Source: a virus
Strand: one strand, 5' to 3'
Length of the DNA: 24,841 nucleotides
Virus record (IMG/VR): IMGVR_UViG_3300027985_001644
Coordinates: 1-24,841 of that record
Notes under the pieces: model-generated
What the model was told of the DNA's origin: nothing
The model's input: the letters and a program-made list of their open reading frames with translations, nothing else
Databases searched by the model: none
Shown: positions 1 through 22,593 of the stretch, piece after piece
Numbering within the stretch: position 1 is the stretch's first letter
How the letters are laid out: every line of letters begins with the position of its first letter
Translations under genes and position numbers: made by a program

Positions 1-134
1 CTGATACCCCAGTGCTACCCAAGGTAGTCTTTCGGATCACAGCATTCTCAGCCGGTTGCAGACCACATTGAGGCCTCACAGTCCGTCTAGAGTTGTCCCT
101 GACGCGCAGGCTCCGCCTATCTTATCATGAGCTT
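1..134. other. Upstream flank of the integrase, no gene seen
   Basis: No supportable gene lies here. The stretch precedes an inward-facing tyrosine recombinase, so by convention it is where an attachment site (attL) of the island would sit. I see no tRNA 3' end or recognisable core repeat, and the partner att site is outside the window, so no attachment site can be called. Confidence 0.3.
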
Positions 135-1325
135 ATGAAGAACAAGCTCACACCCAAATTCATCGAAGGCATCAAGCCCAACCCGGCAAAGCGGCTCGAT
201 TTCCGCGACGATCTCATGCCGGGGCTTGTGTTGCGTGTCAGCCAAACCGGGACCAAAACCTTTTGCCTGCATCGACGGATCAACGGCAAGATGCGGCGTC
301 TGAACATCGGTCGGTTCGGTGTCATCTCGCTTGCCGAGGCACGGGAACGGGTGCGACAGGTGCTTTACGAAATCGAGTCCGGCCGGTTTGAAGAACGGGC
401 CGGGGTTGAAGTCGAAGACCGTAAGACCCTGGGCGAAATCATCCCCGACTATGTCGAAAAGCACGCCAAATCCCAAAACCGCGACTGGCGGAACAAACAA
501 TCTCTGCTGGCGAAGTTCACCGACCTGCACGGGAAGCGCCTTGATCAGATCAAGCGGGCGGATGTCGTCAAGGCGCTGGACGCCATCGTTGTGACCGCCC
601 CAGTCAGCGCCAACCGGGCCTTGGCGCATCTGAAGCACCTGATGAACTGGTGCGTAGATCGCGGAATGCTCGACGCTTCGCCGCTGACTGGCATGAAACT
701 CCCGACCAAGGAAACCCCGCGCGAACGGGTGTTGACCAGTGAGGAACTGCGGGCGCTCTGGGCGGCCTGTGACGCCGACGGATACCCGTTCGGGGATTGC
801 ATGAAGCTGCTGATCCTCAGCGGCCAGAGGCGCACCGAGGTTGCCGAAATGAAGTGGTCGGAACTCGACCTCGACAAGCGCCTTTGGACTCTGCCGTCTG
901 CGCGGGCCAAGAACGGCAAGCAGCACACTGTGCCGATCACCGATGCCATGTTGACCGTGCTGCGGAGCGTCCCCCGTTACCTGTCCAGCGATTTCGTTTT
1001 CACGACGACTGGCAAGACGCCAATCTCGGGCTTCGGCCGGGTGAAGGAACGCATGGACAAGGCTCTTCCCAAAGACACAGCGCCGTGGATCATCCACGAC
1101 CTGCGCCGCACGATGTCTACGAACCTCGCCATGCTGGGCGTCCCGCAGCCCGTAACGGAGGCGTTGCTGAATCACAAGACAGGTGTAGTTTCGGGCGTTG
1201 CAGCGATCTACAATGTCTACTCATACGCGGACGAAAAGCGGGATGCCTTGGCGCGATGGGGAAAAACCGTCACAGCTTTGGTCACAGGGACGGACAATGC
1301 CAAGATCACCATTGCTAGAGGTTGA
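135..1325 (+). CDS. int: Tyrosine recombinase/integrase of an island or satellite
   Basis: Site-specific recombinase of the P4-like integrase family, which inserts and excises an element at an att site. The chain shows an N-terminal arm-binding DUF4102-type domain, a central SAM-like core-binding domain and a C-terminal catalytic domain. Numbering from the TTG at 93, the catalytic set is visible: Arg246 in SGQRRTEV, His335 and Arg338 in HDLR, His361 in LLNHK and nucleophile Tyr373 in AAIYNVY. The ORF opens at the TTG at 93 (410 aa), but the conserved family N-terminus MKNKLTPKFIEGI begins at the ATG at 135 (396 aa), which I prefer; neither has a strong ribosome site. It is the outermost gene and faces inward, as is normal for island integrases. 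It overlaps the next gene by 29 nt. Family assignment is secure; the insertion site is unknown. Confidence 0.95.
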   Translation: MKNKLTPKFIEGIKPNPAKRLDFRDDLMPGLVLRVSQTGTKTFCLHRRINGKMRRLNIGRFGVISLAEARERVRQVLYEIESGRFEERAGVEVEDRKTLGEIIPDYVEKHAKSQNRDWRNKQSLLAKFTDLHGKRLDQIKRADVVKALDAIVVTAPVSANRALAHLKHLMNWCVDRGMLDASPLTGMKLPTKETPRERVLTSEELRALWAACDADGYPFGDCMKLLILSGQRRTEVAEMKWSELDLDKRLWTLPSARAKNGKQHTVPITDAMLTVLRSVPRYLSSDFVFTTTGKTPISGFGRVKERMDKALPKDTAPWIIHDLRRTMSTNLAMLGVPQPVTEALLNHKTGVVSGVAAIYNVYSYADEKRDALARWGKTVTALVTGTDNAKITIARG

Positions 1326-1896
1326 ACATTTCGTAGGTCCTCGACGGGCGTTTGAGATTGTAGGCGACCATCTATTTGGCAGCGACTGGAGGCAGGAATG
1401 CGTCGAGGATCGCGCCGACCTGCACCACAAAGAAACCGTTGCCGTTCTTAGACAGGCGCTGAAATCCGGAATTGTTCGGTCGCACTGGTCCACCCCTGAC
1501 TTCAACAGCGGCGGCGACTTTCGCCCTCAAGATGCAGACCAGGAGTTCTTCAGCATCAATGCGAAAGATGACCTCGTGTTCCATCCAATGGTCGGGCAAC
1601 CAGTGACTTGCAGGATATTCGCGGAAGACCTGCGTCAGTTTCTTGTCGGACAACCTACCCGGCATCGGGGCTTCGGGAAATCATCTGGCCAGCCATGCAC
1701 CAAGTGGCTGACAAAGATGTTTCTCGAGGGCGGAAAAGACGTGCCAATCGTAGCAGAACTATTCCGACAAGCGCGGGAACATTGGCCCGGACTATCAGAG
1801 CGCAGCTTCAAGATGGCACGTAAGAAAGCCATCGACCTATCTGGCCGGACGGACTTGGCTAAGCCGGGCCGGAGAAAGAATCCAAACGGTGCGTGA
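1297..1896 (+). CDS. Hypothetical protein, 199 aa, next to integrase
   Basis: I do not recognise this family. The ATG at 1297 lies inside the 3' end of the integrase gene and follows a purine-rich AGGGACGG, so it is probably translationally coupled. The N-terminal two thirds are acidic and mixed, with phenylalanine- and histidine-rich segments (for example EVEHFVG, DDLVFHPMV). The last ~45 residues form a basic, helix-prone tail (SFKMARKKAIDL and a final PGRRKN) of the kind often seen in small DNA-binding or accessory proteins of phages and islands. The position directly behind int suggests a role in integration/excision control or element maintenance, but this is inference only. No membrane segment or catalytic motif is visible. 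Confidence 0.6.
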   Translation: MPRSPLLEVEHFVGPRRAFEIVGDHLFGSDWRQECVEDRADLHHKETVAVLRQALKSGIVRSHWSTPDFNSGGDFRPQDADQEFFSINAKDDLVFHPMVGQPVTCRIFAEDLRQFLVGQPTRHRGFGKSSGQPCTKWLTKMFLEGGKDVPIVAELFRQAREHWPGLSERSFKMARKKAIDLSGRTDLAKPGRRKNPNGA

Positions 1897-1941
1897 TCTG
1901 ATTGGCGCCGAATTTTTCTTCAGATTCGTATCTGCTACCGT

Positions 1942-1976
1942 CATTCCATCGGCTGATTGAACGGAATGCGCATTCC
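1942..1976. promoter_or_regulatory. Palindromic operator candidate upstream of alpA-like gene
   Basis: A perfect 14-bp palindrome, GGAATGCGCATTCC, lies at 1963-1976, 27 bases before the alpA-like start codon. A third half-site, CATTCC, sits at 1942-1947. The location just upstream of a gene for a small DNA-binding protein fits an autoregulatory operator. No clear -10/-35 pair was found, so the promoter itself is not defined. Confidence 0.4.
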
Positions 1977-2003
1977 TTCACACCCATGTTGAAGGACAAA
2001 TAG

Positions 2004-2228
2004 ATGAAAATCGAAGACGGTCGCAAGACCTTGGCCGTGCGGGATGACCTCAAGCGGCTAGGCATAAACGTCAGCAACACGACCCTTCTGCGCTGGGAAG
2101 CGCGCGGGCGCTTTCCGCGCCGCATCAGAATGGCCGGGACGAGCGTTGCTTGGTTCCTGTGCGAAATCGAGGACTGGCTGGTTGCACGCGCCGCAGAACG
2201 TGCCCGCGCGCATTACGCCGACTACTGA
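2004..2228 (+). CDS. AlpA-family excisionase/transcriptional regulator
   Basis: A 74-aa winged-helix protein of the MerR-like AlpA/phage-excisionase type. It contains the characteristic run of an AlpA DNA-binding unit: a recognition helix region NTTLLRWEARGRFPRRIRM followed by a beta-wing and the closing segment VAWFLCEIEDWLVAR. In P4-like elements such proteins activate the integrase gene or act as directionality factor for excision. A good ribosome site (GAAGGA) precedes the ATG. It lies between the integrase block and the replication gene, the usual place in satellites and islands, and only 23 bases before the prim-pol start, so the two are likely cotranscribed. Confidence 0.85.
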   Translation: MKIEDGRKTLAVRDDLKRLGINVSNTTLLRWEARGRFPRRIRMAGTSVAWFLCEIEDWLVARAAERARAHYADY

Positions 2229-2251
2229 TCACCCATAGAAGGAGAAACGGG

Positions 2252-4027
2252 ATGCCATCCGCATTTCGCTTCGAGGGTGACATGGCGTCTTCCTCGATCA
2301 CCAAAGCTGCGCTTGCATGGGTGCGGCAAGGTGCCAAGATCATTGCCCTGCATGGCATCGATGAGGCCGGGTCCTGCACCTGTGGCAAGAGCCATTGCCG
2401 CAGTCCGGGCAAGCATCCCATCGCCGACCTGTTCCCGAAAGGGCAGCACAGTGCCACGACCAGTGCTGCCACGATCCGGCGCGCCTTTACTAAATACCCG
2501 AAAGCAAACCTCGGCGTGATCCTGCCCCCGGGTATCGTCGCGCTGGACGTGGACGGGCCGGAAGGGCTTTCGACGTTCAAGGGCTTGGACCTTCCATCCA
2601 CCTTGTCCGTGCAAACAGGTCGGGGCACTCACCACTACTTTCGCGCTCCGCAGCAACTCCCCAAGAGGAAGACGAACCTCGAACATATCGACATCAAGGA
2701 TGACCAGTCCGGTTACATAGTTGTTCCGCCCAGCACACATCACAGCGGCAAACAGTATCGCTGGCGGAAGTCGAATGGGCCTATCGCAACCCTGCCGGTC
2801 AGTTTGTTGAAACGGCTGCGACGCCCTGCAACGGTAAAGGTGCAGTTCGGCGGCGAAGGGGTGTTCCGTGCGGGCGGGCGCAACAGCGAACTCACCAAGA
2901 TTGGCGGTTCGCTCAGGTTCCGTGGGCTTTCCGAAACCGCTATCGGCGCGGCATTGCAGGCGATCAACACTACGGCCTGCAACCCACCCCTAGACGCCGA
3001 AGAGGTCGACCGCATCGCCATCAGTATCGGCAGGTATGAACCCGCAAACGAAGCCGCCTTTGGCTGGCTCGATGATGTTGAGGAAACCGAACCCCAGTTC
3101 CTCGCCTTTCCCTACATCGTCAGGGGTGCGCTGACCGTCCTCGACGGCAACATGGGGCAAGGCAAGTCGACCTTCACCTGTGCCATCGCCGCAGCCGTGA
3201 CCACGGGCGAGCCACCGCCGTTCGTCAAGAATATCGAGAAAGGCCGCGTCCTATTCATGTCAGCGGAAGACGACGCCTCGCGCGTCCTGAAACCGCGCCT
3301 GATCAAAGCCGAGGCAGACACGTCAAAGGTGCGCTTTCAGCAGGAACCGTTTTCACTGGACGAAAGAGGTCTGACGATGCTGCGGCAGGAACTTGCCGCC
3401 AACACCCCGGCGCTGGTGGTCATCGACCCCATCATCGCTTTCATGAAAGACGGGGCAGACGGCAACAAGGCGACCGAGACCATGCACTTCATGGTGCAGA
3501 TCGACCAGCTTGCCAAAGAGTTCGACACGGCCATCCTGATCGTGCGGCACCTACGCAAAGCGCGCGCCGATCACGCGATGCACCAAGGGATTGGGTCAAT
3601 CTCGATTTCTGCCCGGGTGCGTTCCGGCCTGATCTTGGCCCCGCATCCTGACGAACCGAAAAGGTTGCGTGCGGTGGCCCACGCCAAAGCGAACTACTCC
3701 GAACTCGGCCCCACTATCGTCTTTGAACTGGAAAACACCGGCCCGCGGTCACACCCGAAGCTCCGGTGGCATCCGACCGATCCATCCTTGACCGCAGAAA
3801 TGCTGCTGGCCCCACCCGAACAAGAAAGGGGCCGACCGCCTCGGGAACGGGACACTGCGACGGTCTGGCTGGAAAGCGTGCTGCGCAAGGGGCCGACCAA
3901 GAAGGCAGTGCTTGATGCCTTGGCGGCGAAGGTCGGAGTCCGCAACAGCACTCTGCGGCGTGCTGGGGATGCCTTGAGAGTCGTCAAGTCAAAGGACGGC
4001 AAAGATTCGGTCTGGTCGCTCGAATGA
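2252..4027 (+). CDS. Bifunctional primase-polymerase / RepA-like helicase
   Basis: Replication protein of a mobile element. Residues ~15-190 form a bifunctional Prim-Pol domain, with a CxC...C zinc-knuckle-like cluster (Cys42, Cys44, Cys49), the catalytic ALDVDG (Asp99, Asp101) and the later QTGRGTHHYF motif. Residues ~205-260 resemble a primase C-terminal helical domain. Residues ~285-500 are a RecA/RepA-like ATPase with Walker A GNMGQGKS (Lys305) and Walker B LVVIDP (Asp392). The C-terminal ~60 residues look like a winged helix. I chose the ATG at 2252 because AAGGAG lies 10 bases upstream; an open frame extends back to 2150 but would overlap the alpA-like gene. Such proteins prime and unwind DNA for autonomous replication of P4-like satellites and islands. 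Length 591 aa is ordinary for this fusion. Confidence 0.9.
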   Translation: MPSAFRFEGDMASSSITKAALAWVRQGAKIIALHGIDEAGSCTCGKSHCRSPGKHPIADLFPKGQHSATTSAATIRRAFTKYPKANLGVILPPGIVALDVDGPEGLSTFKGLDLPSTLSVQTGRGTHHYFRAPQQLPKRKTNLEHIDIKDDQSGYIVVPPSTHHSGKQYRWRKSNGPIATLPVSLLKRLRRPATVKVQFGGEGVFRAGGRNSELTKIGGSLRFRGLSETAIGAALQAINTTACNPPLDAEEVDRIAISIGRYEPANEAAFGWLDDVEETEPQFLAFPYIVRGALTVLDGNMGQGKSTFTCAIAAAVTTGEPPPFVKNIEKGRVLFMSAEDDASRVLKPRLIKAEADTSKVRFQQEPFSLDERGLTMLRQELAANTPALVVIDPIIAFMKDGADGNKATETMHFMVQIDQLAKEFDTAILIVRHLRKARADHAMHQGIGSISISARVRSGLILAPHPDEPKRLRAVAHAKANYSELGPTIVFELENTGPRSHPKLRWHPTDPSLTAEMLLAPPEQERGRPPRERDTATVWLESVLRKGPTKKAVLDALAAKVGVRNSTLRRAGDALRVVKSKDGKDSVWSLE

Positions 4028-4051
4028 CCTGATTGCCCCCGTTCGGACGCT

Positions 4052-4095
4052 CACTTGCTCAGAATTTTCATGCGTGTGGGATTTCTGAGCAAGTG
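4052..4095. repeat. Perfect 13-bp inverted repeat behind the prim-pol gene
   Basis: CACTTGCTCAGAA at 4052-4064 is exactly complementary to TTCTGAGCAAGTG at 4083-4095, with 18 bases between the arms. No T-run follows the second arm, so a classical intrinsic terminator is unlikely. It sits in the short gap between the replication gene and a small ORF and could be an operator, an attenuator, or part of the element's replication origin. Confidence 0.6.
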
Positions 4096-4160
4096 TTCAC
4101 CCCCCAAGCCGCCCATGGAGGTGGCCCGCAATCCCACCTCGAAACATGAAGGAACAGAAA

Positions 4161-4457
4161 ATGAAAGATCACGCCAAAATGCAGAACCGTCTGAAAGCCA
4201 CCGTTCAAGAGGCAATCCTGAAAACGGGCCAGATCGAGGGAACCGACGACATTGCCCTCACCAATACCGATGTAGTCGAGGCCCTGCTTGAAGTCACAGG
4301 CCTATACGGTTCGATGCAGACCTTCGAGACCTACACGCCGCGAGACGTTGCCTTCAAGCACGCCAATACGCTCCAACGCCACATCGACCGGTTTCGCAAG
4401 ATGCGGGAGGCAGGCAAGTTGCCCTTCAACTTTGTTCCACGGTCCCAGATCAACTGA
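4161..4457 (+). CDS. Small hypothetical protein of the island, 98 aa
   Basis: A small soluble protein following the replication gene in the same direction. The ATG at 4161 is preceded by AAGGAACAGAAA, a good ribosome site; an in-frame ATG at 4146 lacks one. The chain is mostly alpha-helical by composition (MKDHAKMQNRLK, then two helices around residues 35-50 and 65-85) and ends in a short tail. I do not recognise the family. Its placement after prim-pol and the upstream inverted repeat suggests a replication or copy-control accessory, but this is inference. Confidence 0.6.
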   Translation: MKDHAKMQNRLKATVQEAILKTGQIEGTDDIALTNTDVVEALLEVTGLYGSMQTFETYTPRDVAFKHANTLQRHIDRFRKMREAGKLPFNFVPRSQIN

Positions 4458-4778
4458 GGGTGGCAGGCGCCGCGAAATCGGCGGCGGTAATCCAAGGAGA
4501 AGCTCGCCGGACAAAACCTCGGCAGTCGATATGTCAGGTTGTCCGCAAAGGGGGAGCGATCCGTCAAAAAAACGCACCCCCATCTCCCCGCGTGACGGCA
4601 CCTCTGGTGTCTCGGTGCGGGGCGTCAGAGCGGCATTCGGATAATGTATCAGTCTGTCAGACGTGAGCCGGACCCAAATAACCGAACCTTTTCAATTGGT
4701 CCGCGCAGCGGCAGTGGTCGCCGTCGCTGTCTTGGGTATCGCGCGGGTAGCATTTCAGCTTGGCGGACCATCTTGGCG
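4458..4778. other. Gap without a convincing gene
   Basis: No frame here has a ribosome site and plausible protein composition together. A GTG-started frame at 4460-4666 encodes a low-complexity basic peptide I do not accept. An imperfect stem is visible, GGGGGAGCG (4549-4557) against CGCACCCCC downstream with one A:A mismatch. The sequence could contain a transcribed leader or a small RNA, but nothing decisive is seen. Confidence 0.3.
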
Positions 4779-5009
4779 TCATTCTTGGACCCATCCCTTG
4801 CGATGGTAGTGGCGCAGCACGATGACGCGGTTGAACAGTGGGAAGCCGATCCACAGCCCGTTCGCACTGATCAGTGACAGGAGCGACCACAGGAACATCC
4901 CCCTGAACAGGTAGTACAGCGGCCCGAACAGCAAGCACCACAGGCGATGCCAGTTGCCAAGAACCGTTTTCGTTTGACCGTTGAAGGCCCATGTCGCGCG
5001 TATCGTCAT
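4779..5009 (-). CDS. Small membrane protein, DUF2628-like
   Basis: A 76-aa protein whose centre (GNWHRLWCLLFGPLYYLF and the following hydrophobic stretch ending WIGFPLFNR) forms one or two membrane helices, with a polar N-terminus and a basic C-terminus (RHYHRKGWVQE). The pattern of a GPLYYL... helix followed by a short second helix and a basic tail resembles DUF2628-type small inner-membrane proteins; the resemblance is from memory and moderate. I chose the ATG at 5009 because GAGG lies ~9 bases upstream; an ATG five codons earlier (5024) is also possible. It stands alone on the minus strand between the replication module and the nuclease gene. Function unknown. Confidence 0.55.
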   Translation of the reverse strand: MTIRATWAFNGQTKTVLGNWHRLWCLLFGPLYYLFRGMFLWSLLSLISANGLWIGFPLFNRVIVLRHYHRKGWVQE

Positions 5010-5093
5010 TGCCGTTTTCCTCATTGGCTGGCTTCGATGCCAGCGCAATAAGATCGGGGACCATCGCCCGTCAGGGTAATTCCTGTGCTGCCT

Positions 5094-5330
5094 ATGGAGA
5101 CCACAGAGGTAGCCGTACCGATGTACCGCATCCGTGCAGATGCCCGGATGATCGGCGTGAGAGCGGCGCACAGCGCGCTAGCCGGGATTTCGATGGGATC
5201 ACTATGCGTGAGGCGCGCCCCGGCGCTCCTGGCTCAATACAACGCCGCCGCGCGCGCGTTTAGCTCTCGATCCGCAGGGCTAGTCGCGGCTGGGGTCAAT
5301 CCCGGCCCAATGCTCGGCGCATGTCGCTGA
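5094..5330 (+). CDS. Doubtful small ORF, 78 aa
   Basis: An open frame rich in Ala and Ser (for example RAAHSALAGISMGSLC and FSSRSAGLVAAGV) that overlaps the 3' end of the oppositely oriented nuclease gene by 35 bases. There is no good ribosome site at the ATG at 5094; the in-frame ATG at 5121 has a GAGG but 12 bases away. No family is recognised. It is listed because the 290-base interval would otherwise be empty. Confidence 0.2.
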   Translation: METTEVAVPMYRIRADARMIGVRAAHSALAGISMGSLCVRRAPALLAQYNAAARAFSSRSAGLVAAGVNPGPMLGACR

Positions 5331-5910
5331 GTGTCGATCTGAACGGATGTCCTGACATGCTGAGGTTTAACGGCAGTGGTGGCCCGCCTCTGATCAGCGT
5401 TTCCTCAAGCGCCCAAGGTTCTTCATGTTGGACTACCGAGATCGCCGCGTGCTGATCCATCCAGTCCGACAGCCTGTCCTCTTGCTGCCGATCCATGTGA
5501 ACGCGGTTTCGACTGTCCCGCCAGAAGGTCAGGTCAAGCGCCCGTTTGAGCAATGCCGCAAGGGACAGGCGCACGGTCGAGACCCGCACAGTTCCCCGCA
5601 GATGATTGCGCCAAAGCCGTCTTTGCATCGGCGTCCGCGCGCTTCGGCTTTTTGATCCATCCTTCGGAGGTGCGATGCCAATGTAGAGCAGGTGTTTCCC
5701 CTCTCGCTCTATGCATCCGCCCCTTGGCACCAAAGGCAGGCGGTGGTCGAACCACCAGCCGTAGACGCCGTGCGTAACCACGTGCAGGTCGATAAAATCC
5801 AAGACATGACCGGGCAGCAGTAGGGTGTCGGGCGACAGAATGGCCCTGGCTTCCCCCCTTAGACTATGAGTCAACTTAGAGGGCGCATGTCCCCCTGCCT
5901 CTTTCTGCAT
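5296..5910 (-). CDS. GIY-YIG nuclease family protein
   Basis: Predicted nuclease with the GIY-YIG fold. The two signature strands are visible as HGVYGWW and LLYIGIAPP, followed about 20 residues later by the arginine-bearing helix QRRLWRNHL, and a late acidic helix ALEETLI that can supply the catalytic Glu. The C-terminus PLPLNLSMSGHPF is typical of a GIY-YIG family that includes small restriction-type and orphan nucleases. The start is uncertain: ATG at 5910 (TTG at 5946 also open). A C-box-like operator at 5862-5872 lies inside this N-terminus and a strong AAGGGGGGAA follows it, so the true start may be a non-standard codon near 5838-5841. That would begin the protein just before the conserved LLLPGHVLDF. 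It is divergent from a controller-like regulator. No DNA methyltransferase is adjacent. Confidence 0.75.
   Translation of the reverse strand: MQKEAGGHAPSKLTHSLRGEARAILSPDTLLLPGHVLDFIDLHVVTHGVYGWWFDHRLPLVPRGGCIEREGKHLLYIGIAPPKDGSKSRSARTPMQRRLWRNHLRGTVRVSTVRLSLAALLKRALDLTFWRDSRNRVHMDRQQEDRLSDWMDQHAAISVVQHEEPWALEETLIRGGPPLPLNLSMSGHPFRSTLSDMRRALGRD
5862..5872. promoter_or_regulatory. C-box-like operator, copy 1
   Basis: GACTATGAGTC matches the GACT-N3-AGTC consensus of controller-protein (C-protein) operators of restriction-modification systems. It lies within the annotated 5' end of the GIY-YIG gene. On the minus strand it reads TGACTCATAGTCTAAGG, nearly the same as copy 2 on the plus strand. 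Confidence 0.55.
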
Positions 5911-5961
5911 TCCTGAATGCCGCCAGTGACTTCGGGCCTTCCGCAAGCCTAGGTCGATTAT

Positions 5962-5978
5962 GACTCATAGTCTATGGT
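5962..5978. promoter_or_regulatory. C-box-like operator, copy 2, before the controller gene
   Basis: GACTCATAGTC at 5962-5972 is the exact reverse complement of the site at 5862-5872 and lies exactly 100 bp from it. The following TATGGTC gives a degenerate second half-site and a possible -10 (TATGGT at 5973-5978) for the controller-like gene. Overlap of a C-box with the promoter is the standard arrangement for C-protein autoregulation. Confidence 0.55.
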
Positions 5979-6001
5979 CGAAATCGTGACCGCCATGCGC
6001 C

Positions 6002-6220
6002 ATGCCGCGCATGTCAATTCAATCGCGCGTTTCCAGAAACATCCAAAGGATCAGGAGAGAGAAGGACCTTTCGCAAGAAGAGGTCGCCCATCGCGCAGCC
6101 ATTCACCAAACCTACCTGAGTGGCGTCGAAACCGGGAAGCGCAACCCGTCGATCTTGGTAGTCGAGCGCATCGCCACGGCCCTCGGCGTGGACGTCTCGG
6201 AAATCTTCAAGCCGAACTAG
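6002..6220 (+). CDS. XRE-family regulator, restriction-controller-like (C protein)
   Basis: A 72-aa (69 aa from the ATG at 6011) single-domain helix-turn-helix protein. The run LSQEEVAHRAAIHQTYLS then VETGKRNPS and LGVDVSEIF is the Xre/Cro-type five-helix fold, filling nearly the whole chain, as in restriction-modification controller proteins of ~75-80 aa. No ribosome site precedes either ATG, which fits the leaderless or near-leaderless transcripts of many C genes. The GACTCATAGTC site 30-40 bases upstream is a C-box-like match, and the GIY-YIG nuclease gene diverges from the same region. I infer that it times expression of that nuclease and of itself. XRE assignment is secure; the controller role is inference. 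Confidence 0.8.
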   Translation: MPRMSIQSRVSRNIQRIRREKDLSQEEVAHRAAIHQTYLSGVETGKRNPSILVVERIATALGVDVSEIFKPN

Positions 6221-6285
6221 GGTTATTCCTGACACGCTCCGATCTTGCGTCTTATCGATCCTCATCAGCAACTTAGGAGATCGAC

Positions 6286-6486
6286 ATGACCGACATCGTG
6301 ACGCTCAACGCCATCTGCGAAGAACTCAAGATCGACCCGCGCGAAGCCCGCGAACGCCTGCGCGCGGCCGCCAGCGATGCCACGGCAAACCCTGAACTGG
6401 CGAAGGCGAGGAAACCGCGCACCCCGTGGCAGTGGGTGAAGGGGTCTGCCGCGGAGAACGAGGCTCGTAAAGCGCTCACTATCTAA
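6286..6486 (+). CDS. Small conserved-looking hypothetical protein, 66 aa
   Basis: The ATG follows TTAGGAGATCGAC, a strong ribosome site. The protein starts with an acidic helix that resembles a helix-turn-helix or degradation-tag-like fold (TLNAICEELKIDPREARERL) and ends in a basic, Trp-containing segment (RTPWQWVKG) followed by a short helix. It follows the controller-like gene by 65 bases in the same direction and is closed by a hairpin terminator, so the two may form one transcript. I do not know its function; a small nucleic-acid-binding protein is plausible. Confidence 0.65.
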   Translation: MTDIVTLNAICEELKIDPREARERLRAAASDATANPELAKARKPRTPWQWVKGSAAENEARKALTI

Positions 6487-6508
6487 GACTTGTAGAAATG
6501 AATTGCTG

Positions 6509-6530
6509 GGGCCGCTTGTTTGCGGCCCTT
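6509..6530 (+). terminator. Intrinsic terminator-like hairpin
   Basis: GGGCCGC (6509-6515) pairs with GCGGCCC (6522-6528) across a TTGTTT loop and is followed by a short TT. It closes the small plus-strand operon and lies between convergent genes. Confidence 0.6.
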
Positions 6531-6594
6531 GGCATAGGATGCGGCTGAAGGTCATTTCGACCTCTTCTATCGACCCGTTCTTTCTTCTGGCCAG

Positions 6595-7494
6595 TTATTG
6601 AGGGCGAGAAAAGCGACTGAAGTAGTCGACTGCGTCCTCCGCTTGTTCCTCTTCAATATCCGCCAGTGGCGCGCGCGCCTCCAACGTCAACAGCGAAAGA
6701 GATAGATCGTACCGTTCTGAGATCATTGAGTGATCTGTGACCGGCTCCCTCAGCCAAGTACCTCCATCGAGTCTCGTCGGTTCGATCAGTCCAACACTTC
6801 CGGCATTACGCGCCACCGGCGACATCAAGGGGATTTCGCGGGGCGGCAATCCTGCAACCTTGATAAACGCACCGGACTTGAACGCCGGTTCGCTGGATCT
6901 GGCCCAAAGAATGTAACCATCACGACTTACAACAAGGATTGCTCTTTTCTGGGTGTATGAAAGCCACCGGAGTGTTGCAGCTGTCAACGAGACTTCATAG
7001 CGCTCGGCACACGCACCAAGCATGTCGAAATCAGCACCGCAATTCGCGGGAATCTGCGCTCGGAAATCATCCAGCGGCATTAGCAGACCGGCGGCGAAGC
7101 GGTTAGCCTCGGCCTCGACACGATTATATTCGCTATCCCATCTCACCATGTCCTCCGGACGGCATTGAAAGCCGTTTGGGTACTTTTTTCGGTGAAGCAA
7201 GTAGTGGCCGAACTCGTGTGCGATTGTGAAATTCACCCGCCCTTTTACGCGAAGAGAATCGGAATAACCGATCCCCCACTCACCAGACCCATCCGGTTTT
7301 GGGATCAATGCGCCCTCAAAACCGTCAAATCCCCGTGCGCGCACGCGCGTGATGGGATCGTCTGGAAATACCTGTTGACTGTATTTCTGAGCCAAACTCG
7401 CCACGTCTACCGGAAAGCGAGCGGCCCCAAAGGCCGAAGTCAACAGGATTGAGAGGTCATTCGCCCACCGCTCCGGACCTTTGTCTTGCTTCAT
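6595..7494 (-). CDS. capP: CapP-like ImmA/IrrE (DUF955) metalloprotease
   Basis: Zinc metallopeptidase of the ImmA/IrrE family. The catalytic HEFGH is at residues 93-97 and the third ligand is in the helix VEAEANRFA (Glu129). The C-terminal ~130 residues form a separate regulatory domain after the peptidase. Its gene overlaps the upstream XRE repressor gene by 4 bases (ATGA). The pair is divergent from a CBASS operon, the arrangement described for CapH/CapP, in which the protease cleaves the CapH repressor after DNA damage and so induces CBASS. The symbol is assigned from context; the fold is certain. General ImmA proteins of mobile elements work similarly on their own repressors, so the alternative is a phage-type repressor/antirepressor pair next to CBASS by chance. 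Confidence 0.85.
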   Translation of the reverse strand: MKQDKGPERWANDLSILLTSAFGAARFPVDVASLAQKYSQQVFPDDPITRVRARGFDGFEGALIPKPDGSGEWGIGYSDSLRVKGRVNFTIAHEFGHYLLHRKKYPNGFQCRPEDMVRWDSEYNRVEAEANRFAAGLLMPLDDFRAQIPANCGADFDMLGACAERYEVSLTAATLRWLSYTQKRAILVVSRDGYILWARSSEPAFKSGAFIKVAGLPPREIPLMSPVARNAGSVGLIEPTRLDGGTWLREPVTDHSMISERYDLSLSLLTLEARAPLADIEEEQAEDAVDYFSRFSRPQ

Positions 7495-7814
7495 TCGTCA
7501 TCCCAGAGGTCAAGCATCTTACGCATCGTATCACGTTTGTCCGGTGCCAATTCGACGAATTTCCGAAAGAAAACCTTGTCTTCAGGAGATAAGTCGTCTG
7601 CGGTATTAATTGGCGTGCCGATAAGAACATCGACCGTCGTGTCCAAGGCAGCCGCGATCGCAGCCAATTTGTCCGCAGACGGCCTCGGGGGATTCTTGTT
7701 TTCGAGCTCCCAAATGTAACCCTTGCTGCATCCCGCCTTGGCCGCGAGCTGGTCGAGTGTGAGGCCGCTTCCTGTTCGTCGATCCCGAATCCTTTGGCCC
7801 ATTGGTGTGGTCAT
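7491..7814 (-). CDS. capH: CapH-like XRE repressor of the CBASS operon
   Basis: A 107-aa transcription factor. Residues ~5-65 are an XRE helix-turn-helix (GLTLDQLAAKAGCSKGYIWE, then NPPRPSADKL). Residues ~70-107 are an acidic linker and C-terminal helix (SPEDKVFFRKFVELAPDKR), a plausible oligomerisation and cleavage region. A strong GGAGGGCGG precedes the ATG at 7814. It is cotranscribed with the overlapping CapP-like protease. A minus-strand promoter can be read at 7862-7867 (TTGTCA) and 7839-7844 (TACTCT) with 17-base spacing. The -10 lies inside one copy of a 20-bp direct repeat found twice in this divergent promoter region, consistent with autorepression. Role as CBASS repressor follows from the published CapH/CapP arrangement and is inferred here. 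Confidence 0.82.
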   Translation of the reverse strand: MTTPMGQRIRDRRTGSGLTLDQLAAKAGCSKGYIWELENKNPPRPSADKLAAIAAALDTTVDVLIGTPINTADDLSPEDKVFFRKFVELAPDKRDTMRKMLDLWDDE

Positions 7815-7834
7815 GTCCGCCCTCCGTGTGTTTT

Positions 7835-7854
7835 GTTCAGAGTAGACATATTTT
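7835..7854. promoter_or_regulatory. CapH operator candidate, direct repeat 1
   Basis: GTTCAGAGTAGACATATTTT. It differs at only two positions from the repeat at 7893-7912 in the same orientation, 58 bp away start to start. It contains the -10 hexamer (TACTCT on the minus strand) of the predicted repressor-protease promoter. Confidence 0.6.
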
Positions 7855-7867
7855 TCTTCCTTGACAA
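7839..7867 (-). promoter_or_regulatory. Predicted promoter of the repressor-protease pair
   Basis: On the minus strand, -35 TTGTCA (7867-7862), a 17-base spacer and -10 TACTCT (7844-7839). The start codon of the XRE gene is 24 bases further on. Overlap with the direct repeat argues for autoregulation. Confidence 0.45.
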
Positions 7868-7892
7868 ACGGGATGGCAGGTCACACCTTGGC

Positions 7893-7912
7893 GTTCAGAG
7901 TAGCGATATTTT
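7893..7912. promoter_or_regulatory. CapH operator candidate, direct repeat 2
   Basis: GTTCAGAGTAGCGATATTTT, 18 of 20 positions identical to the repeat at 7835-7854. It is on the CBASS side of the divergent promoter region, ~100 bases before the CD-NTase start, where a repressor could block the defence operon. Confidence 0.6.
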
Positions 7913-8010
7913 GCGTGACACCTTCTCTTCCTGTCATCAACATATCGAGCAGCAACGATAGGCCCGCCCTACCAATAGGGCCAGCCAAGCGACCTAGAAA
8001 GGGGTCCACG

Positions 8011-9261
8011 ATGAACAAGCACTTGGGGACCCCGGCCGCTCCGTGGGACAGTATCTCGGAACAGATGTTGGCGGCTGTGGCCATCAAGATCGAGCTACCA
8101 CCGAGCATGCACGCACTTCTGGCAGAGCGGAAAGCGGCCATCGAGAAGCACCTTGAACGCGACGGAAGCCCGCTGAAAGGGAAGATCCGTCTCTTCTACC
8201 AGCAAGGCTCAGTTGCCATTGGCGCAACCATTCGAGCCAAGTTCCGCTTCGAAGGTTTCGACATCGACATCATTGTCGAACTGATCGCGCCGGGCCTGAC
8301 GCCTTGGCAGGCTCTTGAGTTGCTCTACGAGGCTATGCGGGGCGAGCGTGGCTCACGTTACTACGACATGACTGAGCGCCAGACACGGTGTGTGACGATC
8401 CACTATGCCGATGGGATGCACCTCGACCTGTCTCCCGCCGAACTGATCAGCGAAATCGACCCGCGCCGTAGCTACATCTTCCATTCCAAACCTGAAGATC
8501 AGCGCAACAAAGACCACAAGGTGTTAACCAACAGTTTCGGATTTGTCGAGGAGTACAACTCGACCTGCCCGGTCGATCTGTCGTTTCAGCAGGAGTACGC
8601 TCGGCGGGCACTCCAAGCCGATCAAGGCTTGGTCGTCATGCAGAAGGATGCAGACTCTTTGCCTGTGCCAGCCCACTCGACTGTCGTGGGAGGGAAATCA
8701 GCGGTCACCGTGGCGCTTCAACTGATCAAAAGGAACCGCAACATCCGGTGGGCAACCCGGGATGGGCGCATGCCCGCCTCTGTGATGCTGAGTTGTCTGA
8801 CGTTGGAGGTCGCAGAATCAGGGCGGACCATTGGTCAGAACCTCAAGATCATCGCGCAGCACATTCTCGACCGCCTGCTGTGGGCAAAAAGCGTGGGCGA
8901 GCTGATCCACGTAGAAAATCCGCGATGCCCCGGCGATGTGTTCACTGATCGCTGGCCTGAAAACCACTCCGCACAAGACAAGATGATCGCGGACATGAAG
9001 CTGTTCTTGGAACAACTCAGCGTGCTTCTCGATGATCGACGGACTTTGCGTGAACGTCGCGACACCTTGAAAGCCATGTTCGGCGAAGACATTGGCCAGC
9101 AAGTCGTGGACGACATGGAACGCGAGATTGGTGAGGCTATTCGCACTGGTCGTCATGGCTTCGGCGCGCTCGGCGGCCTTGCTATGAGCCCAACCATCGC
9201 ACGGGCCAAACCAGCGGTGAAGCCTTCGACATTCTATGGCACGCGGTTTTGGAAACGATGA
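8011..9261 (+). CDS. CBASS CD-NTase (cGAS/DncV-like nucleotidyltransferase)
   Basis: Synthesises a cyclic oligonucleotide alarm signal on phage infection. The nucleotidyltransferase core is visible: the QQGSVAIGATI turn (Gly66-Ser67), the metal-binding FDIDIIVEL (Asp84, Asp86) and the third carboxylate in MHLDL (Asp139). The rest, to residue 416, is the helical lobe of the CD-NTase fold. I chose the ATG at 8011 because GAAAGGGG lies just upstream; the frame is open back to 7861 but that segment contains the operator repeats. The stop codon overlaps the E2-like gene by 4 bases. The C-terminus ends in GTRFWKR rather than a small residue. The cyclic product cannot be predicted from sequence. Divergent CapH/CapP-type genes probably repress the operon until induction. 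Confidence 0.92.
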   Translation: MNKHLGTPAAPWDSISEQMLAAVAIKIELPPSMHALLAERKAAIEKHLERDGSPLKGKIRLFYQQGSVAIGATIRAKFRFEGFDIDIIVELIAPGLTPWQALELLYEAMRGERGSRYYDMTERQTRCVTIHYADGMHLDLSPAELISEIDPRRSYIFHSKPEDQRNKDHKVLTNSFGFVEEYNSTCPVDLSFQQEYARRALQADQGLVVMQKDADSLPVPAHSTVVGGKSAVTVALQLIKRNRNIRWATRDGRMPASVMLSCLTLEVAESGRTIGQNLKIIAQHILDRLLWAKSVGELIHVENPRCPGDVFTDRWPENHSAQDKMIADMKLFLEQLSVLLDDRRTLRERRDTLKAMFGEDIGQQVVDDMEREIGEAIRTGRHGFGALGGLAMSPTIARAKPAVKPSTFYGTRFWKR

Positions 9262-9734
9262 AATCCCTCCTAGCACAAGTGGACGCAATGCAGCGCGATT
9301 GGCCGCAACTCCAACCCACGAAGGGGTTCGGGCCGCAGTCCGTTGTCTGGTTTGGCGATATTAAGGGCATAGATCGAAAATTTCAGATCAGCATCGAGTA
9401 CGGCCTGCCCCTGACCGGGCGAACTGAACTATACCGGCGCATGCCCGTGGTTCGCGTCCTGAGGCCCTCGCTAGTCCCGAATTGGGACGCCGAAGAGGAG
9501 TCCCCACTCCCTCACGTTTACTTCGAGCTTCCAGACATCAGGTTGTCTCCGCTTTGTTTGTTCGACCCTAAGGCTCGTGAATGGGACCCATCCATGCTCA
9601 TCAGCCGAACGACCGTTGGCTGGACTGTGCGCTGGCTCGCCGCTTACGAGTTCTGGGAAATGACCGGGCGTTGGATCGGCGGCGGGCGACACGAGGAAAT
9701 TGGGACAGACAAGGGCGACAGCCATGCCGCGTGA
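9258..9734 (+). CDS. CBASS E2-like conjugating protein (type II-short)
   Basis: A 158-aa bacterial E2 (ubiquitin-conjugating-like) protein of the E2-only CBASS type. The family signature is present: a His at residue 86 (LPHVYFEL), then SPLCLFDP with the presumed catalytic Cys100, EWDPSMLIS, and the C-terminal YEFWEMTGRWIGGGRH. There is no E1 or JAB-type partner in the operon, unlike the long type II systems with a Cap2 E1-E2 fusion and Cap3. In related systems this protein forms covalent links with the CD-NTase and primes it for signalling. The ATG at 9258 overlaps the CD-NTase stop (ATGA); a TTG three codons earlier is also in frame. It overlaps the effector gene by 11 bases. Confidence 0.88.
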   Translation: MKSLLAQVDAMQRDWPQLQPTKGFGPQSVVWFGDIKGIDRKFQISIEYGLPLTGRTELYRRMPVVRVLRPSLVPNWDAEEESPLPHVYFELPDIRLSPLCLFDPKAREWDPSMLISRTTVGWTVRWLAAYEFWEMTGRWIGGGRHEEIGTDKGDSHAA

Positions 9735-10797
9735 CAGCGAATATGACCACACCGTTCCTCGACGCTCTGACGGAACGAGACAAACTCTCAGACCGGTTCA
9801 GCCGTGGCCTGCGGAGAAGCCGTTCAAGATACTTTCCATCGATGGCGGCGGCATCTTGGGCATTCTTCCCTGCATGGTGTTGGCTGAAGTCGAGAAACGG
9901 TTCCTTGGAGGTGAGCCAATCGGGCAGCACTTTGACATGATCGTGGGCACATCGACCGGGGGTATCATCGCGCTGGGTCTTGGGCAGGGGAAATCCGCAC
10001 AGGAAATCTCCAAACTCTACATTGAGCGTGGCCGGTTCATTTTTCCTGGAAATCGCCTTACGCGGTGGCTTCGCGGTTTGGCGGGCTGGGCATTCACCCC
10101 ATACAACCGGGCCAACCTCGAAAACGAGCTGCGTCGAGAGTTTGGTGATGGTCTCTTCGGCTCTTCATCTGCCGCAATCTGCATACCGTCCTTCGATGGC
10201 AGATATGGTGAGCCATATGTTTTCAAGACACCTCACCACCCTGATTACAAGAAAGACCAGTATGAGCGGCTTGTGGATGTCGGGCTTTCCACTGCGGCGG
10301 CGCCCACGTTCTTTGCTGCGGTGAAAAGAAATGGATACGTGTTCGCAGATGGTGGCATTTGGGCGAACAATCCCGCCATGATCGGTATTGTGGACGCACT
10401 GACCTGCTATGACATTGATCGCACCCAGATCAGGCTCCTGAGCCTCGGATGCGGTCAAGAAAGTTATCGAATGCGCTGGTGGCACCGCATCGGAGGGAAA
10501 TTCGTCTGGGCCAGCGCGTTTGTTACCTCTGCTATGAGGGCACAATCGCATAACGCGCTGGGTCAAGCTGGATTGTTGATCGGTCGCCCACATTTGCTTC
10601 GGCTAGATGCCCCTGAGGTCGTCAATAGGATCGGAATGGACAATGTCGACCGGGCTTTGGCCGAAATGCCCCCCGTCGCAAGGTCGCTTGTGGAAGCATC
10701 GGGGCAAAGGATTTCCCAGATATTTCTCCAAGATGCGCACCCGGAACCACCGCATGCGCAACACACTGAACCAAGTGACAGCGCGGTTTCAGGCTAA
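9724..10797 (+). CDS. capV: CBASS effector: patatin-like phospholipase CapV
   Basis: A 357-aa patatin-like phospholipase, the membrane-degrading effector triggered by the cyclic nucleotide. Visible motifs are the oxyanion loop DGGGILG (residues 40-46), the nucleophile elbow GTSTGG with Ser77, and the catalytic DGG at 209-211 (FADGGIWANNP). On activation such enzymes hydrolyse inner-membrane phospholipids and kill the infected cell. The ATG at 9724 follows AAGGGCGACAGCC; the frame is open upstream to 9700 but starts there would lie deeper inside the E2 gene. The last ~20 residues are a disordered Pro/Ser-rich tail. It is the last gene of the CD-NTase-E2-effector operon, and a hairpin follows 15 bases after the stop. 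Confidence 0.92.
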   Translation: MPRDSEYDHTVPRRSDGTRQTLRPVQPWPAEKPFKILSIDGGGILGILPCMVLAEVEKRFLGGEPIGQHFDMIVGTSTGGIIALGLGQGKSAQEISKLYIERGRFIFPGNRLTRWLRGLAGWAFTPYNRANLENELRREFGDGLFGSSSAAICIPSFDGRYGEPYVFKTPHHPDYKKDQYERLVDVGLSTAAAPTFFAAVKRNGYVFADGGIWANNPAMIGIVDALTCYDIDRTQIRLLSLGCGQESYRMRWWHRIGGKFVWASAFVTSAMRAQSHNALGQAGLLIGRPHLLRLDAPEVVNRIGMDNVDRALAEMPPVARSLVEASGQRISQIFLQDAHPEPPHAQHTEPSDSAVSG

Positions 10798-11170: not shown

Positions 11171-11293
11171 TGACAAGGTCTGACCGGTGGGTCAGACCTT
11201 CATAGTCTCGGTCAGACCTTGTCAGGGAATTGAATAGACAAGATTTTTTGCATGAAAGATTGCTGAATCTCGATGTCCAAGGTCTGACCGAGA
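11171..11293. repeat. Four copies of AAGGTCTGACC: candidate prophage left-end transposase sites
   Basis: The 11-mer AAGGTCTGACC occurs at 11175-11185 (+), 11190-11200 (-), 11210-11220 (-) and 11279-11289 (+). Copies 1 and 3 extend to a 16-bp perfect inverted pair (TGACAAGGTCTGACCG and its complement, 11171-11186/11209-11224). Copies 3 and 4 share 15 bp (AAGGTCTGACCGAGA). Multiple sites in mixed orientation close to the left end is how MuA-binding sites are arranged in Mu-type phages. Function as attL is inference. They could alternatively be operators, or a terminator structure for the methyltransferase gene. Confidence 0.5.
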
Positions 11294-11344: not shown

Positions 11345-12151
11345 CTAGTTTCGGATGAGCAACTCCGCCCTCGCGCCGCCGGCATCGTTGCGCCCGGCCG
11401 CAATCGTGTACGTCGTGCGCACCTCCGTCAGATCGAACGAGGCAAAGATCGCACGGATCTCCGGAACGTCATTCAAGGACATGATGAAGTGCCCTTTGAT
11501 TCCGCCGAGGACAGTCGCCAGCCGCGCAAAATCAGTGCGCTCGAACATCTGCTTGCCGTAATCATCCTCGCAGCCCCAATAGGGCGGATCGAGGTAGAAG
11601 AGCGTGTTAGGGCCGTCATAGCGCGGGATGAAATCCGCCCAATCCAGGCACTCGATCACCACGCCGGCAAGCCGCGTGTGCAGATCCTCGAGCATCGGCT
11701 CGAGCGTGGTCAGGTTGAAGCGACCCGGGCGATCCCTCGAAACGCCAAAGTTCCGCCCGCTCACCTTGCCGCCGAAGGCCGTACGTTGCAGGTAGAGAAA
11801 CCGCGCCGCTCGCTCGAGGTCGGTGAGCGTGTCGGGATTGGTCTCGACCAGGCGATTGAACTCGGCGCGCGTGGTGAGCTGAAAGCGCAGAACCTCGAGA
11901 AACTGCGGGTAGTGGCGTTGCAGGATGCGGAACAGGTTCGCGATATCGCGACCGCGGTCATTGATGACCTCGGCTCTGGGCCGGGTAGAGCGGCGAAGGA
12001 AGATCCCACCCATCCCGACGAATGCCTCCGCATATAGCTGGCATGGGGTCGCGTCGATGATCGCGCAGATCCGCTTCGCAAGGTTACGCTTGCCGCCCAT
12101 CCATGGGGCGGCAGGCGCAGTCGGAGCTACCGGCTCGAGTTCATGGTGCAT
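11345..12151 (-). CDS. DNA adenine methyltransferase, D12 class (Dam-like)
   Basis: N6-adenine methyltransferase of the MethyltransfD12 family. The N-terminal APWMGGKRNLAKR is the family's cofactor/DNA motif, AEAFVGMGGIFLR (41-53) is the AdoMet-binding motif, and the catalytic DPPY is at 188-191 (FYLDPPYWG). At 268 aa the protein is of normal length. AGGA precedes the ATG at 12151 by 9 bases. It is transcribed leftward toward the prophage end, outside the c repressor, so it probably belongs to the phage as an accessory gene that protects phage DNA from host restriction. The target sequence cannot be read from the protein; GATC is only the family default. Confidence 0.9.
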   Translation of the reverse strand: MHHELEPVAPTAPAAPWMGGKRNLAKRICAIIDATPCQLYAEAFVGMGGIFLRRSTRPRAEVINDRGRDIANLFRILQRHYPQFLEVLRFQLTTRAEFNRLVETNPDTLTDLERAARFLYLQRTAFGGKVSGRNFGVSRDRPGRFNLTTLEPMLEDLHTRLAGVVIECLDWADFIPRYDGPNTLFYLDPPYWGCEDDYGKQMFERTDFARLATVLGGIKGHFIMSLNDVPEIRAIFASFDLTEVRTTYTIAAGRNDAGGARAELLIRN

Positions 12152-22211: not shown

Positions 22212-22481
22212 ATGGCAAAGACCTTCCCGAAATCCGAACTCGCTCGCCAGCTCGCGCATGACATGGGCTGGAACGTCACCAACACCGCCGAGGCCGTCGA
22301 TCGTATGTTCGAGCTGATCCTCGAGCACGCTGAGGCCGGAGAGCGTGTCAGCATCGGCTCGTTCGGCTCGTTCAGCGTCAAGCAGAAGGCTGCTCGCAAG
22401 GCGCGCAACCCGCACACGGGCGAAGCCGTCGATGTGCCGGCGCGGGCCGTTCTGGCCTTCAAACCGTTCAAGACCGCCTGA
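22212..22481 (+). CDS. HU/IHF-family DNA-bending protein
   Basis: An 89-aa HU-like protein. The family signature is visible: the N-terminal helix pair (KSELARQLAHDMG..., AVDRMFELILEHAEAGERV), then SIGSFGSF, and the DNA-clamping arm KAARKARNPHTGEAVDVPA with RNP-type loop, ending AFKPFKTA. AGGAGAAACACC precedes the ATG. Mu transposition uses host HU and IHF, so a phage-borne HU may make the transpososome less dependent on the host or assist packaging. A strong inverted repeat follows the stop. Confidence 0.92.
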   Translation: MAKTFPKSELARQLAHDMGWNVTNTAEAVDRMFELILEHAEAGERVSIGSFGSFSVKQKAARKARNPHTGEAVDVPARAVLAFKPFKTA

Positions 22482-22485
22482 GCGA

Positions 22486-22540
22486 AACGCCGAGGGTTTC
22501 TGACATAGCTTCAGAGCCAATATCAGAAACCCCTGGCGTT
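22486..22540 (+). terminator. Long hairpin after the HU gene
   Basis: AACGCCGAGGGTTTCTGA (22486-22503) pairs at 16 of 18 positions with TCAGAAACCCCTGGCGTT (22523-22540) across 19 bases. It lies immediately after hupB-like coding sequence in the only sizeable gap of this operon. There is no T-run, so it may be a Rho-independent-like stop, an mRNA-stabilising hairpin, or a regulatory RNA. Confidence 0.5.
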
Positions 22541-22593
22541 GTCGCGGCGTGGTGGCCGCGGCCTGATGAGCAGCTGGAGGATAGTTTAGAGCC

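Follow-up and report, generated by a model that had tools for sequence, protein, structure and literature searches.

What purpose does a perfect inverted repeat serve directly behind the primase–helicase gene of a viral record, and is it a replication origin, an operator or the signature of an RNA hairpin? We addressed this question in the 24,841 nucleotides of IMG/VR record IMGVR_UViG_3300027985_001644 (positions 1–24,841; hereafter the window). The initial annotation described a perfect 13-bp inverted repeat in the gap between the prim-pol gene and a small gene, with no T-run, and each of these points was confirmed. The left arm CACTTGCTCAGAA (4052–4064, plus strand) and the right arm TTCTGAGCAAGTG (4083–4095, plus strand) are exact reverse complements 18 nucleotides apart, bearing the core TGAGCAAG on the reverse and forward strand, respectively; the repeat starts 24 nucleotides 3′ of the prim-pol stop codon (4025–4027), and the right arm is followed by TTCACCCCCC. 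None of 200 dinucleotide shuffles of the 130 nucleotides after the stop codon reached the score of the repeat. When the whole window was shuffled, one or more perfect 13-bp repeats (loop 3–60) turned up in 12 of 300 shuffles, so a repeat of this length anywhere in 24.8 kb is only mildly unusual. In sister loci the symmetry reaches two 22-nucleotide halves (86% complementary and without a spacer in L013), and we thus treat the unit as a 44-bp near-palindrome (4052–4095, assigned to neither strand) rather than as two arms around a free loop.

The palindrome lies in an island with an integrase gene (93–1325, plus strand; PF00589 and PF13356), followed by genes for an AlpA-family regulator (2004–2228, plus strand; PF05930) and the prim-pol/helicase (2249–4027, plus strand). 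A CBASS operon (6595–10797) encodes the regulators CapP and CapH (minus strand), a nucleotidyltransferase, an E2-like protein and a CBASS-type phospholipase, and a gene for a D12-class adenine methyltransferase is found at 11345–12151 on the minus strand. The same island backbone with other cargo occurs in Ruegeria pomeroyi. In the window the island is joined to a Mu-like phage, recognized from the translations. Two other perfect repeats in the window are longer (16 bp): between the phospholipase and methyltransferase genes, four copies of AAGGTCTGACC in both orientations form 16-bp perfect inverted repeats at 11171–11293. The Mu-like part contains a match to the type II hammerhead ribozyme (22480–22579; 53 bits against a gathering threshold of 37), just behind a reading frame at 22212–22481.

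Eleven sister loci emerged when genome contigs were scanned with the prim-pol protein; going by the record titles, their genera belong to the Rhodobacterales. Ten of the 11 carry the 44-bp unit at the same place, 14–21 nucleotides 3′ of the prim-pol stop codon, and this conservation at one place, the check proposed in the initial annotation, was the decisive point in judging the repeat real. In the exception, L008, the prim-pol gene is truncated 3′, and neither the palindrome nor the 270-nucleotide noncoding block that lies further downstream was found in that genome. The palindrome is single-copy in each of the ten sister genomes (allowing up to three mismatches). Among 394 sampled genomes of the family it was present in three, all of them sister genomes and exactly those with a close prim-pol (74–79%), and both were absent from the other 391. 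A class-wide search of 385 genomes matched solely G001, which was already in the set. Viral contigs yielded no match to the palindrome pattern and no relative of the prim-pol or of the 98-amino-acid protein encoded downstream, and plasmid and phage collections gave chance-level matches only to the palindrome region.

We compared substitution along the 11 palindrome-bearing sequences (the window included). Of the outer bases of the arms (2 × 10), 18 of 20 are invariant, with a mean pairwise difference of 0.018, compared with 0.165 for the inner 24 bases of the unit, 0.23 for the first eight bases to its right, and 0.53 and 0.61 for the left (2–15) and right (9–38) flanks. Differences at codon positions 1, 2 and 3 in the last part of prim-pol were 0.12, 0.10 and 0.42. 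The outer arm bases have thus changed less than the neighbouring prim-pol codons, whereas the flanks on either side have diverged, and the invariance of these letters indicates strong constraint on the sequence itself, beyond pairing alone.

The gene upstream encodes a prim-pol, a PriCT_1 domain, an AAA_25 (RepA/RadA-like) helicase and a winged helix, as recognized with Pfam and with PDB profile matches to RadA and to RSF1010 RepA (1g8y, E = 1.4e-5 for the helicase core); its start codon is uncertain (ATG at 2249 or 2282). The C-terminal winged-helix domain (3842–4024, plus strand) is the proposed reader of the palindrome. AlphaFold modelled the last 68 residues with a pLDDT of 91–94 over residues 11–68 and the order H-H-H-E-E, and Foldseek matched this model mainly to winged-helix regulators, weakly but consistently (best E = 0.022, PDB). 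The model of the whole prim-pol had a mean pLDDT of 58.9, and because of this low confidence we used the model of the C-terminal domain alone.

Related helicases were found in 14 of the 394 family genomes at E ≤ 1e-20, and 11 of these are distant (32–36% identity). Behind the helicase of 7 of the 11 distant genomes lies an inverted repeat of other sequence, whose elements repeat at 8–9-bp intervals, in opposite orientation on the two sides of a spacer. We also included L057–L061, reached via the noncoding block and not via the helicase search, and L064, from the second of two tandem islands in genome G002; the helicases at these loci are AAA_25 proteins. The iterons are of the types TGAGMA (L032, L034 and L064), with a core common to the TGAGCAAG arms of the window, TTGRCG (L033, L035, L036 and L037), TGRCR (L031), GTTAYC-like (L057, L058, L059 and L061) and GTGATS (L060). 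Counting the window and its sisters, arrays with 8–9-bp spacing were present in 13 of 21 loci tested. In shuffle tests of 20 of these loci, 15 had scores reached by 0 of 200 shuffles and two by 1 of 200, and at L028, L030 and L062 the observed score was reached by 16–26 of 200; the twenty-first locus, L064, gave 4 of 200. No iterons were found at this place in the prim-pol relatives L027–L030 and R. pomeroyi L062, which have instead an AT-rich imperfect repeat and an apparent canonical terminator; three of the four loci tested in this group were not beyond shuffles. Spacers between the two iteron sets of the distant relatives are 47–62% AT. In the clade of the window, a lone inverted pair flanks an ordinary spacer (56% AT), and there is no array with three or more elements. 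We note that L060 carries, on the reverse strand just 3′ of the helicase stop codon, an exact TGAGCAAGTG beside iterons of the GATCAC type, which may be chance or a relic.

Across these islands the type of winged helix changes along with the type of iteron. The helix reads STLRRA in the window and PTLRRA in most sisters, and the nearest wording, PTLNRA, occurs in L032, L034 and L064, the loci whose iterons share the TGAG core. Identity of the C-terminal domain to the TGAGMA group (0.37–0.39) is barely above that to the other groups with a TLxRA helix (0.33–0.37) and does not distinguish them clearly. The groups of helix and iteron are few (about six) and related by descent, so their co-change is a pointer rather than an independent test. 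Tandem islands gave a mixed result as a test of incompatibility, because the two in G197 have different iteron types (TTGRCG and GTTAYC) and those in G002 have iteron cores that are related and not clearly different.

Downstream of the palindrome are a gene for a 98-amino-acid protein (4161–4457, plus strand; no family recognized) and a conserved noncoding block of about 270 nucleotides (4499–4767, assigned to neither strand), on which a gene for a 76-amino-acid protein converges (4779–5009, minus strand; no Pfam or NCBIfam family matched). The 98-amino-acid gene is a dispensable companion: seven of the 11 palindrome-keeping loci have it intact, a stop codon interrupts it in L003, L004 and L007 carry a 72-amino-acid reading frame in its stead, and L010 lacks it. 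The palindrome stays in all 11, and we conclude that it travels with prim-pol. The block bears an A-run, and we propose it as a second component of the origin region. It is common to the distant relatives and aligns over about 270 nucleotides between the window and 21 further loci, though incompletely in some: L032 is without its second half, L010 is without its first, and L031, L033 and L036 have an insertion. Of the alignments used for folding the block, one (A2) comprised 18 of the 22 loci, leaving aside L031, L032, L033 and L036, and another (A3) comprised 21, leaving aside L010. With the L028 copy as query, the block was detected in 18 of the 394 family genomes, namely the 14 with a related helicase together with G150, G252, G260 and G299, in each of which it lies behind an AAA_25 helicase. 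It is retained across islands whose initiators share only about 20–35% identity. Two genomes have two copies in the same orientation about 16 kb apart (G002:C4:185042-200921 and G197:C1:1045881-1062506), as in two tandem islands. In the plasmid and phage collections the block matched one plasmid record, R. pomeroyi NC_006569, and nothing among the phages. We treat the block as a DNA element since RNAalifold returned weak structures for its halves (−9.9 and −5.8 kcal/mol, with covariation terms of −0.39 and −0.79). An RNA-family reading was considered and rejected: Rfam searches came back empty for 3900–5000 of the window (E up to 1) and, with E up to 0.1, for L028 and L038 among the relatives.

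Three other functions for the palindrome have to be weighed. It could form an RNA hairpin that ends the prim-pol transcript, either as a terminator without a U-tract, such as a pause or an end assisted by Rho, or as a 3′ stabilizer that limits read-through into the following gene. A position just 3′ of the stop codon would suit such a role, as would the stable RNA folds of all eight distinct palindrome sequences (−18 to −29 kcal/mol, z −4.4 to −9.0; −25.1 kcal/mol, z −6.9 for the 44 nucleotides of the window) and the apparent canonical terminator at the same place in L027–L030 and L062. However, a T-run is present on neither side and a terminator scan found none there; a G+C-rich stem followed by a T-run is not what is seen at 4052–4095, and the attenuating hairpin of the initial annotation, understood as a plain intrinsic terminator, thus finds no support. 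The arm letters are invariant beyond the needs of pairing, and related clades have iteron arrays at this very place. Covariation was no higher than in shuffles (91.7% of cells paired compared with 92.1%), which neither supports nor refutes hairpin formation; an early impression that G–U changes favoured an RNA hairpin was dropped on these grounds. Overall, we consider a role in the transcript unlikely. A folded strand might instead act in DNA, as a priming site like ssiA and ssiB of RSF1010: after the helicase has opened the duplex, the prim-pol would recognize the hairpin and prime on it, as RepB′ does in the description of RSF1010 given in the relevant part of PMC4234260. The union of prim-pol and RepA-like helicase core in one gene and the stability of the hairpin are consistent with this idea, but there is one copy per genome (up to three mismatches) rather than the two sites of RSF1010, and related helicases are followed at this place by iteron arrays, which are typical of double-strand binding, so we regard it as improbable.

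The remaining alternative, an operator for the downstream gene or for an island regulator such as AlpA or an XRE-type protein, draws on the symmetry of the site and its position 65 nucleotides upstream of the start codon of the 98-amino-acid gene in the window. This reading loses ground because the palindrome persists in the four loci in which that gene is broken, different or absent (L003, L004, L007 and L010). The arm sequence has no other site in the window, matches with up to two mismatches are no more frequent than expected (20 observed, 21.4 expected) and provide no extra copies at other promoters, and a scan of 1300–7900 found no sigma-70-like promoter. An operator, which the initial annotation had also proposed, is in our judgement very improbable.

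We consider it likely, on the basis of these comparisons, that the replication origin of the island has the palindrome as its initiator-binding core, in a rep–ori module like that of phage-inducible chromosomal islands (PICIs). Where the initial annotation spoke of an origin or a copy-control site, it is the origin that gains most, from the inverted iteron arrays at the same place in distant islands and from iteron types that follow the winged helix of the helicase. The position of the palindrome, its symmetry, its conservation, its strict company with the prim-pol clade, the counterpart iteron arrays and the predicted winged helix all support this assignment. Weighing against it are the single inverted pair and ordinary spacer of this clade, the missing iterons of L027–L030 and L062, the confounding of helix and iteron types with ancestry, the narrow margin in C-terminal identity and the related iteron cores of the tandem islands in G002. 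The layout of the module is the same as in PICIs and in pRN1, which is why we take the palindrome as the site bound by the initiator. We infer that the C-terminal winged helix of the prim-pol/helicase would bind both inverted TGAGCAAG arms, probably as paired subunits, and that binding would load the RecA/RepA-type helicase ring onto the DNA. The prim-pol part might then synthesize the initial primers within or next to the conserved block with its A-tract (4499–4767), which would thereby participate in the origin, and in this way set off replication of the island.

A broader and more tentative proposal is that Rhodobacterales defence islands have a two-part origin, in which a fast-changing, island-specific initiator site, either an iteron array or a minimal 44-bp palindrome in the prim-pol clade, is combined with a near-constant 270-nucleotide block that is independent of the initiator and would be read by something shared, for example a factor of the host or helper phage. 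The arrays of the prim-pol clade would have collapsed to one palindrome, on which the fused prim-pol/helicase would start replication unaided. This is possible, though we hold it to be doubtful. The portions of the literature on Rhodobacterales and Roseobacter that we consulted contain no description of this island type. The palindrome region is a small and directly testable candidate origin for marine Rhodobacterales islands with anti-phage cargo; knowing the origin would tell whether these islands are true phage satellites and which of them can share a cell, and could provide replicons for marine Rhodobacterales.

Several known systems resemble this arrangement. RSF1010 oriV, in the part of PMC4234260 that treats it, likewise combines a RepA helicase, a RepB′ primase and nearby ssi hairpins, but the window has one hairpin in place of ssiA and ssiB, its primase and helicase are fused and no separate RepC was seen in it. 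The Vibrio cholerae satellite PLE is also a satellite-type island with initiator-bound iterons that include a 13-bp inverted repeat, as far as the relevant section of PMC7145576 describes it, but its initiator is a RepA_N protein rather than a prim-pol and its repeats are direct. The initial annotation made a comparison with P4-type elements; the closer published parallels that we found are Gram-negative PICIs and the archaeal plasmid pRN1. In PICIs (EcCICFT073 and others), according to PMC6092414, the origin directly follows the rep gene on its 3′ side and contains two iteron sets; deletion of this region significantly reduced the colonies obtained. The window shares with their pri–rep–ori module the gene order int, alpA, pri/rep, a primase either fused to the initiator helicase or encoded beside it and, in position only, a site immediately 3′ of the initiator gene (14–24 nucleotides behind the stop codon in 11 loci); its relatives also carry two inverted iteron sets 3′ of the rep gene. 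It differs in having just one inverted pair, whose short spacer (56% AT) is not rich in AT, with the 98-amino-acid gene and the 270-nucleotide block after it, and in its AAA_25/RepA-like helicase. According to PMC4234260, replication of pRN1 requires a stem–loop 3′ of the prim-pol/helicase/winged-helix gene; the stem–loop varies among relatives, unlike the conserved sequence around it. The window likewise has an archaeo-eukaryotic-type primase (Pfam Prim-Pol) fused to a helicase and a predicted winged helix, with an inverted repeat just 3′ that varies between relatives and is flanked by a conserved stretch, whereas pRN1 has an SF3 helicase instead of the RecA/RepA type (AAA_25, RepA/RadA-like) and a stem–loop of about 100 nucleotides instead of a 44-bp unit whose sequence is fixed within the clade. 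Because it lacks both the two iteron sets around an AT-rich stretch of PICIs and the SF3 helicase of pRN1, we file the rep module of the window under neither, and we take it to work like both. The palindrome is most likely the site at which the replication protein of the island binds to begin its copying, a variation on a layout familiar from other islands that resemble phage satellites.
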